In this document: positions 28,749-58,657 of the stretch, one piece after another
Layout of the letters: every line of letters starts with the position of its first letter
Numbering within the stretch: position 1 is the first letter of the stretch
Assembly: GCF_022844465.1 (NCBI RefSeq)
Contig: NZ_JALHLP010000001.1
Location: forward strand, 124,001 to 188,000
Source of the DNA: Bradyrhizobium sp.
Lineage (GTDB): Bacteria > Pseudomonadota > Alphaproteobacteria > Rhizobiales > Xanthobacteraceae
Length of the DNA stretch: 64,000 bases
Direction: 5' to 3'
Made by a program: the position numbers and the translations under genes
Notes under the pieces: model-generated
What the model was told of the DNA's origin: nothing
Seen by the model: only the letters and a program-made list of their open reading frames with translations
Databases searched by the model: none

Positions 28749-28794
28749 TTGCGGAACACATATCGAACATATAGTGTTCGTTCATGCTTTGTTT
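28749..28794 (+). promoter_or_regulatory. lexA promoter with LexA operators
   Basis: GAAC-N7-GAAC at 28754-28768 matches the alphaproteobacterial LexA box. The inner GAAC also forms a palindrome GAAC-N7-GTTC (28765-28779), and a degenerate GTTC-N7-GTTT follows at 28780-28794. A possible promoter (TTGCGG at 28749-28754, 17-base spacer, TAGTGT at 28772-28777) lies inside this cluster, so LexA binding would block RNA polymerase and autoregulate lexA. Confidence 0.85.
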
Positions 28795-28887: not shown

Positions 28888-29595
28888 ATGCTTACGCGCA
28901 AACAGTATGAACTTCTGCGTTTCATCAACGAACGGCTGAAAGAGGCCGGCGTGCCGCCTTCCTTCGACGAAATGAAGGACGCGCTCGACCTGCGCTCGAA
29001 GTCCGGCATCCACCGACTGATCACCGCTTTGGAAGAGCGCGGCTTCATCCGCCGCCTGCCCAATCGCGCCCGCGCCATCGAAGTCATCAAGCTGCCGGAG
29101 CTTTCGGGCGGCGGTGGCGGCAACGGCCGCCGCGGATTCACGCCGAGCGTCATCGAGGGCACGCTTGGCAAGCGCTCGAGCAGCGCCACGGCCACCGAGG
29201 ACGACGGCAACCGTCCGGTTGCCGTGCCCGTGATGGGCCGGATCGCCGCCGGTACGCCGATCGAGGCGCTGCAGACCCGCAGCCACACCATCAGCGTGCC
29301 GCCTGACATGCTCGGCTCCGGCGAACATTACGCGCTGGAAGTGCGCGGCGATTCCATGGTGGACGCCGGGATCCTCGACGGCGACATGGCGCTGATCCAG
29401 CGCAACGAAACCGCCGAGACCGGCGACATCGTGGTGGCGCTGATCGACGAGGAGGAAGCAACGCTGAAGCGCTTCCGCCGCCGCGGCGCATCGATCGCGC
29501 TGGAGCCCGCCAACGCTTCCTATGAAGTCCGCATCCTGCCGCCGAACCGGGTCCGGATTCAGGGAAAACTGATCGGTCTGTACCGGAAGTATTGA
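28888..29595 (+). CDS. lexA: LexA SOS-response repressor
   Basis: SOS repressor and self-cleaving protease of 235 residues. The N-terminal winged helix-turn-helix (1-65) includes [18 protein letters not shown] Gly/Ser-rich linker (about 72-108), longer than in E. coli and normal for alphaproteobacteria, leads to the S24 domain with the Ala121-Gly122 cleavage site and catalytic Ser156 (RGDSM) and Lys194 (TLKRF). The ATG at 28888 has GGGGGAAAA upstream. Operators lie at 28754-28794, and a matching operator cluster occurs at 57746-57778. Confidence 0.98.
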
Positions 29596-33441: not shown

Positions 33442-35124
<1,683 letters not shown>

Positions 35125-53945: not shown

Positions 53946-57440
<3,495 letters not shown>

Positions 57441-57626
57441 AGTCGCTTATCGGGCTCTTGCATCATGGCAGGAAGCGATCGCCGGCCGACCAGGCACAAC
57501 CGATTCGCCAACCGATGGTGCGGCTTCGGCCTGGCGGAGTCCACGCGCAAGGCCTCCTGCGCGCCCGAGATCCGGCTTTTCCCCAAGCCCCGCCTGAAGG
57601 CCGCTGGAGCCTCCAGCAACGCCGCA

Positions 57627-57725
57627 TCAGAGCTGGGGTATCAGCTGCGCCCAGACCGCCACCATCCCGACAAACAGCGTAATCGACGCCAGCGCCGCCG
57701 CTTCTTCCACAAACGTCCTCAACAT
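57627..57725 (-). CDS. LexA-controlled 32-residue membrane peptide (SidA-like candidate)
   Basis: Short gene of 32 codons plus TGA, starting MLRTFVEEAAALASIT. One hydrophobic helix covers about residues 9-29, with an Arg/Glu-containing N-terminal end and Trp25 near its C-terminal end (VAVWAQLIPQL), so a single-pass inner-membrane peptide is likely. AGGAG lies 8 bases before the ATG. The promoter (57761-57789) is overlapped by two perfect LexA boxes. Caulobacter SidA is an SOS-induced single-pass peptide of 29 residues that blocks division through FtsW; from memory its gene is also near dnaE. Homology is not shown, so other SOS membrane peptides (TisB-like toxins) remain possible. Confidence 0.75.
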   Translation of the reverse strand: MLRTFVEEAAALASITLFVGMVAVWAQLIPQL

Positions 57726-57745
57726 CGGCCTGCTCCTGAATCTGG

Positions 57746-57789
57746 GAACGTATCGAGAACATTGTTCCCTATATGTTCTGATGAGTCAA
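57746..57789 (-). promoter_or_regulatory. SOS promoter with two LexA boxes
   Basis: On the plus strand GAAC-N7-GAAC spans 57746-57760 and GTTC-N7-GTTC spans 57764-57778, both perfect. Read on the minus strand, a -35 TTGACT (57789-57784), 17-base spacer and -10 AACAAT (57766-57761) fall across the second box. The leader to the ATG at 57725 would be about 30 bases. Confidence 0.88.
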
Positions 57790-57841
57790 GGCGGTTGAAC
57801 CGATGGAACTCCCCCAAATAGGCGACTGGTTAATTCCCCTG

Positions 57842-57881
57842 CTCAAGAAGAAAAGCCCCGGGGGCACCGCCCCCCGGGGCT
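57842..57881 (-). terminator. Intrinsic terminator of the outer membrane protein gene
   Basis: A perfect 11-bp GC stem (57854-57864 with 57871-57881) is followed on the minus strand by TTTTCTTCTT (57853-57844), 29 bases past the stop of the outer membrane protein gene. Confidence 0.9.
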
Positions 57882-57910
57882 CATGGACCGATGCTTTGGT
57901 CGCGCTTAGA

Positions 57911-58657
57911 TCAGTACCGTCCCACGCCCGGGCCGCCGAAACGGTAGTTCAGGCGGGCGGTGACGAGATCGACGTCCTGGCGGACGCGGTCGTTGAAGAA
58001 GGCGCCGGCCGGGGTGACGAACCGATAGGTGCGGTCCTGCATGAACAGGTGATTGTATTCGATGCCGGCTGACCAGTTCGGGGCAAAGCCGTATTCAAGA
58101 CCGACGCCAATCGTGCCACCCCAGCGGGTGTCATCGCTGGTGGTGCCCGCGAGCGCGCCGGTGGCAACCGCGAGCGAACGATACTCGTTCGATGTGACGG
58201 CCGCGCCGCCCTTGACGTACAACAGCACATTGTTAGCGGCGTAGCCGACTTGGCCGGTGAACAGGCCGAACGCATCAACGCTCGACTGGTTGCGGAATGC
58301 CGGGTTGAACAGGCTCACATTGCTGCCCTCGAAGTCGGCCCAGTTGCCCTGCGCTTCGACGCCGAACACAAAGGTGCCGGCCTGCCAGCGATAGCCGACC
58401 TGGCCGCCGATCGTACCGCCATCGGCGTTGTGGCAACCTTCCGCGGAGCTACCACCAGCAACCGGCAGGAAGTCCCAGCAGTTGCGGCTCGAACCCCAGC
58501 CGCCATTGGCGCCGATATAGAAACCGCTCCAGTTGTACAAAGCGGCCATCATCGGAGGCGCCTTGGCGTAAGGACGGGCCGCGAGATCCGCAGCGACTGC
58601 GGGCGCAGCCGCGCCGAGCGCGATCAGGCTGGCGGTGACAAGCAAAACCTTCTTCAT
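57911..58657 (-). CDS. Outer membrane beta-barrel protein (Omp25/RopB-like)
   Basis: Outer membrane protein of 248 residues. A signal peptide (1-22, ending APAVAA) precedes an 8-strand-type barrel with alternating aromatic/Gly strands: YNWSGFYIGANGGWG, TIGGQVGYRWQAGTFVFGVE, WGGTIGVGLEYGFAPNWSAGIEYNH and a final ARLNYRFGG. This matches the Omp25/Omp31/RopB group of rhizobia and Brucella, which have many paralogues. A strong terminator follows. It is divergent from the DUF3551 genes across 295 bases, where I see no other gene. Confidence 0.92.
   Translation of the reverse strand: MKKVLLVTASLIALGAAAPAVAADLAARPYAKAPPMMAALYNWSGFYIGANGGWGSSRNCWDFLPVAGGSSAEGCHNADGGTIGGQVGYRWQAGTFVFGVEAQGNWADFEGSNVSLFNPAFRNQSSVDAFGLFTGQVGYAANNVLLYVKGGAAVTSNEYRSLAVATGALAGTTSDDTRWGGTIGVGLEYGFAPNWSAGIEYNHLFMQDRTYRFVTPAGAFFNDRVRQDVDLVTARLNYRFGGPGVGRY

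Follow-up and report, generated by a model that had tools for sequence, protein, structure and literature searches.

Upstream of dnaE, a 32-codon gene preceded by two perfect LexA boxes encodes a predicted single-helix membrane peptide, which appears to be a diverged relative of the Caulobacter division inhibitor SidA. The gene lies in a window of 64,000 nucleotides, the whole stretch of DNA that was analysed, and its product is MLRTFVEEAAALASITLFVGMVAVWAQLIPQL (32 residues, ATG start). Taken as a whole, the statement that this peptide is an SOS division inhibitor of the SidA family acting on FtsW, FtsI and FtsN is likely; the homology to SidA can be held with greater confidence than the whole, the exact contact with less.

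Table 1. Features of the peptide locus and the lexA control, in window coordinates
Feature	Position	Strand	Evidence
SidA-like 32-codon gene, predicted single-helix membrane peptide (stop codon included)	57627-57725	-	ORF, conservation, pN/pS, helix prediction
Shine-Dalgarno AGGAG	57733-57737	-	read in sequence; SD-like core in 66 of 67 loci
LexA box 2, GTTCTCGATACGTTC, directly 3' of the -10 element	57746-57760	-	exact GTTC-N7-GTTC
LexA box 1, GAACATATAGGGAAC, overlapping the promoter spacer and part of the -10 element	57764-57778	-	exact GTTC-N7-GTTC
Sigma-70-like promoter, TTGACT-17-AACAAT	57761-57789	-	motif scan
Terminator-like hairpin 3' of the upstream outer-membrane gene	57853-57882	-	1 found, shuffle mean 0.6
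dnaE, DNA polymerase III alpha subunit	53946-57440	-	NF004226, 1503 bits
LexA box before lexA, positive control for the motif	28754-28768	+	exact motif

An earlier note on this DNA had described a very short gene with a ribosome binding site, a promoter covered by two perfect LexA boxes and a product with one membrane helix. Each of these elements was recovered (Table 1): AlphaFold2, with six sequences, predicts one helix comprising residues 2-31 (pLDDT 94), and the hydropathy reaches 2.09 over 17 residues. The promoter is the sole promoter-like site within 57380-57900 (shuffle mean 0.1), and TTGACT is positioned 5' of box 1 in all 12 promoters listed, of 49 aligned. The terminator-like hairpin may separate the upstream outer-membrane gene from the peptide's transcript, and dnaE starts 186 nt downstream of the peptide's stop codon on the same strand. 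The alphaproteobacterial LexA motif, given as GTTC-N7-GTTC in PMC8565304 and PMC3323433, occurs in perfect form four times in the 64-kb window (shuffle mean 1.59): twice at the peptide gene, once before lexA and once at 34687-34701. The case against chance is made by the conservation tests and not by the box count. A LexA DNA-binding domain is encoded at 28888-29076, with the perfect box 120 nt upstream of the domain, and recA is also preceded by a LexA box in the same genome. A second LexA-type domain (PF01726, weaker, 35 bits, open frame of 136 aa) was observed at L314 (G000:C17:77844-78023), where no LexA box is present.

No Pfam model, LysM included, matches the window peptide, and defence-system models gave no match either. 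In 57300-58000, no Rfam family scores above its gathering score, a search that undescribed antisense RNAs would escape. A mobile origin of the peptide was rejected, as none of 72,556 plasmid and 50,697 phage records matches it at E<=1.

The 32-codon ORF is a real gene. A search of 198 genomes of its GTDB family with the window peptide gave matches at E<=1 in 150, of which four reach no better than 0.04-0.5, and none in the other 48. The loci examined comprised the 30 best matches, 40 spread over genera or representing second matches, and L071, 71 altogether; four second matches with neither box nor dnaE nearby (L065, L066, L067 and L071) were left out, which gives 67 loci. A perfect LexA box is kept in 65 of these: 56 have facing pairs, with a start-to-start spacing of 18 nt in 49, and nine have one perfect box, while the remaining two have near-boxes. 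The pooled pN/pS (631 pairs at 75-95% DNA identity) is 0.137 in frame and rises to 2.25 and 3.66 when the frame is shifted; the value itself is approximate, since the pairs are non-independent and synonymous sites are near saturation, but the contrast between frames is unaffected. The earlier note had tied its reading to conservation of frame and start among relatives, to be sought with the 32-residue sequence and a Ka/Ks-type comparison, and both are indeed conserved: the frame is under selection, and the start codon is ATG in 66 loci and GTG in one. A chance ORF or artefact, for which the length of just 32 codons could speak, is opposed by the conservation, the frame-specific selection and the operator, and can practically be dismissed.

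Distances indicate to which gene the operator belongs. The nearest box precedes the ATG by a median of 20 nt (IQR 15-22, range 12-101; 65 loci), whereas, in the 66 loci with dnaE, its gap to the peptide varies between 91 and 2005 nt; since the former distance is tight and the latter variable, the operator is assigned to the peptide. In two loci (L046 and L048), long opposite-strand ORFs intervene between peptide and dnaE. In L024, no dnaE was found within the 3.1-kb locus, and the ORF downstream of the peptide resembles nusG. Together with selection at the amino-acid level, these observations argue against LexA boxes that serve dnaE, with the ORF as a leader peptide or untranslated leader; such an arrangement is very unlikely, although dnaE is listed among the genes reported as SOS-regulated in Caulobacter (PMC3323433) and lies downstream on the peptide's strand at 66 of the 67 loci. 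With the operator assigned to the peptide gene, co-transcription of dnaE is possible as a side effect.

The same arrangement is found in the Caulobacterales. A MipZ query yielded 80 loci of this order, and the DNA before dnaE was read in the genomes of 30. In Caulobacter vibrioides OR37, a perfect LexA box is followed 49 nt further on by the start of a 29-aa peptide, which ends ~34 nt before dnaE (whose start was extrapolated from a protein match). The NCBIfam model for the 'cell division inhibitor SidA', NF033228, matches this peptide at 1.6e-20; the position of SidA near dnaE, as given in the earlier note, is thus correct. The locus CC1927 is sidA. CC1926 is dnaE (PMC1839093), and the length of SidA is given as 29 residues (PMC4211646). 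At 29 of the 30 loci, an ORF before dnaE scores >=19 bits against a SidA HMM built on 12 rows from these same loci; the ORF of L299 has a divergent second half, and before dnaE at L290 no SidA-like ORF is present. Since the box in Caulobacter stands before sidA, the LexA site that the literature assigns to dnaE probably serves sidA, with read-through into dnaE being possible, and the SOS assignment of dnaE probably reflects sidA. Two facing boxes in the window's family contrast with one perfect box in OR37, and ~97% of Caulobacter SOS promoters have a single LexA box according to PMC12700426, which makes the facing pair a distinguishing feature of the window's family. Paired boxes with 18-nt spacing also occur at four loci of Caulobacterales type (L291, L296, L307 and L177), but there both point the same way, unlike the facing, equally spaced pairs of the window's family.

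In the wide sense, the window peptide and SidA have in common a detectable sequence relationship, a promoter with a LexA box, the locus before dnaE and a size of ~30 residues with one predicted helix. Although the certified model does not recognize the window peptide (NF033228, 35-bit cut-off, no match at E<=10), profiles do detect the common sequence, whose alignable pattern is E..AL.S...FV.M....AQL. In local mode, hhalign aligns the window-family and SidA profiles over 27 gap-free columns with 37% identity (P 2.1e-4, probability 46%); the global mode yields P 0.0012 and a probability of 8%. Permutation of the SidA columns, either unrestricted or confined to regions or to hydropathy classes, reached the observed score in 0, 0 and 1 of 1000 cases, a test slightly favouring the observed value because the alignment had been optimised beforehand.

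Further evidence stems from an HMM built from the window's family only, which was run on 1184 short dnaE-upstream ORFs from 128 loci outside the family, with 905 reverse-strand ORFs as control. Scores above 6.0 bits were obtained at 28 of the 128 loci, 20 of them Caulobacterales SidA, and at none of the 128 on the reverse strand. The scores are modest: the best Caulobacterales peptide reaches 14.3 bits, and for C. vibrioides the value is 9.6 (an E of 0.4 among 10,000 ORFs). One member of the window's family, L044, matches NF033228 at 0.067, in register and below the cut-off, as its sole match in the library at E<=10. Caulobacterales peptides, too, fall under this cut-off, namely L177/L291 with 20.5 bits and L287 with 18.3 bits. 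The window peptide is hence best described as a diverged variant and not as a certified equivalog.

A stretch of 32 hydrophobic residues holds little information. Unrelated small membrane peptides might have arisen several times between dnaE and a LexA box upstream of it, as the peptides of four families (L143, L148, L153 and L198), which lack clear similarity beyond one helix, could suggest. Such convergence is distinctly unlikely in view of the recovery of Caulobacterales SidA among upstream ORFs by the window-family HMM and of the in-register match of L044. Homology of the window peptide to SidA is well supported, which bears out the earlier note, where a counterpart of SidA in rhizobia and a so far undescribed SOS membrane peptide had been offered as alternatives. 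A genome-wide search of 387 genomes of the class with the window-family profile (A1) did not find SidA; it gave convincing matches in the window's genome and one other of the same genus, and with just these two it was dropped in favour of synteny and a combined profile (A4).

To assess the wider occurrence in the class, 98 dnaE-upstream regions (<=700 nt) from 69 other families were used, 28 from the best DnaE matches outside the family and 70 spread over families. A perfect LexA box is present in 16 of them, compared with a mean of 0.9 and a maximum of 4 for 43 decoy motifs; a box combined with a short helix ORF is present in ten, compared with zero for every decoy, and any short helix ORF in 12. 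The 30 Caulobacterales loci are less clean, with 18 boxes and 12 combinations of box and ORF, where decoys reach up to 5 and 3.

The combined profile A4 (17 rows) was run on 389 whole genomes of the class, of which 40 match at E<=0.05 and 349 do not. All of the 20 best loci (E<=2.6e-4) are positioned before dnaE on its strand, and all except L364 have a perfect box (19 of 20); a second match in G619, also in this range, is outside the 20-locus count. This result is partly non-independent, because 7 of the 20 loci come from genomes that contributed a row, the peptide at L360 is the same as that of a row, and further loci are closely similar. Two of the next ten loci are before dnaE and eight elsewhere. 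By profile, the families are f1, f2, f3, f5, f11, f55, f69 and f105; f36, f78, f101 and f107 come from box and ORF only. One and the same peptide occurs in f55 and in Brevundimonas poindexterae (L177, L291).

The peptide could act in the following manner: LexA bound to the two adjacent boxes would cover the promoter and silence the peptide gene. Upon DNA damage, RecA would trigger LexA cleavage, allowing the peptide to be made and, presumably, to insert into the membrane as one transmembrane helix. There, it may hold the FtsW/FtsI/FtsN complex for septal wall synthesis inactive, such that division would wait for repair.

Several observations favour a SidA-like block of this complex: (i) PMC4211646 describes two-hybrid contacts of Caulobacter SidA with FtsW and with FtsN, as well as mutations in either FtsW or FtsI that overcome SidA; FtsW A31K frees the cell from SidA and not from DidA, and mutations at A31, F145 and A246 free it from SidA or from both SidA and DidA; (ii) FtsW in the window's genome has A, F and A at positions 31, 145 and 246, as in Caulobacter, a site test weakened by variation of positions 31 and 246 in other peptide carriers (S, F, S in an f2 genome; M, F, A in an f3 genome); (iii) FtsW is the one SEDS protein over the cut-off in the window's genome (L352), as likewise in four relatives, while the two Caulobacterales genomes searched have two each; (iv) the window peptide is predicted to form a single helix; (v) low-confidence AlphaFold 3 models place SidA on TM7 of FtsW (PMC13396833).

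An SOS membrane peptide that shares its ancestry with SidA could also have another target or effect, for instance membrane depolarisation or toxicity. Single-pass SOS peptides of other function do exist: E. coli TisB is a LexA-controlled short hydrophobic toxin with an antisense RNA partner that depolarises the membrane, and DinQ of the same species is described as a LexA-controlled short hydrophobic toxic peptide, also with an antisense RNA partner. Both resemble the window peptide in being short, hydrophobic and under LexA control, the sequence shared with SidA is itself short and hydrophobic, and the FtsW positions 31 and 246 vary among relatives. Set against this are the similarity to SidA, which is position-specific beyond hydropathy class, the fixed locus before dnaE (TisB and DinQ are not known to be linked to dnaE) and the Rfam scan of 57300-58000, in which no described antisense RNA family was found. 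A different target or effect is accordingly rated as unlikely, and inhibition of division as in Caulobacter is retained as the preferred reading.

Among other division inhibitors, Caulobacter DidA resembles the SidA type as a small single-pass protein acting on FtsW/I/N; in the description of PMC4211646, it differs from the 32-residue, LexA-box-controlled window peptide in its 71 aa and in being induced by DriD, with no LexA control, so that neither its length nor its regulation fits. YneA, ChiZ and SosA are DNA-damage-induced membrane division inhibitors, as proposed for the window peptide. They are larger than SidA-type peptides, and YneA has a LysM domain. ChiZ has one as well (PMC13396833), in contrast to the window peptide; the low-confidence models mentioned above place ChiZ and SosA, too, on FtsW TM7, with SidA on the opposite side.

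With moderate confidence, SidA can be regarded as an ancient alphaproteobacterial checkpoint, present in at least 12 GTDB families (eight by profile and dnaE linkage, four by LexA box and helix only), with the 'dnaE' LexA site being the sidA promoter and the peptide of the window's lineage stopping division via FtsW alone. If so, SidA is no Caulobacter speciality, and division in the window's lineage would be stopped through a single enzyme, as FtsW is its one detected SEDS protein. The peptide is a concrete candidate SOS division inhibitor for the family of the window and for several more families of the Alphaproteobacteria. In searches of an open-licence literature collection, neither a named SOS division inhibitor for these families nor a report of SidA outside the Caulobacterales was found. 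The NF033228 model, under whose cut-off even some members from the Caulobacterales fall, would be widened, a gene class with no Pfam match would gain coverage, and the LexA site before dnaE would be read differently.

Second, box-less copies were also encountered. The window's genome contains a second SidA-like peptide, MMISLLEEVASFAAIFLFVTALAFWSNILSAI, away from dnaE and with no LexA box (L071/L318, G000:C10:40270-40365), and a peptide 47% identical to it is encoded in another genome (L065/L317, G114:C34), likewise away from dnaE and box-less. These copies were set aside, as a two-row profile of them, run on 149 genomes, gave nothing better than 4.4e-8 beyond the two source genomes. An extra match was observed in G120 at C6:111171.
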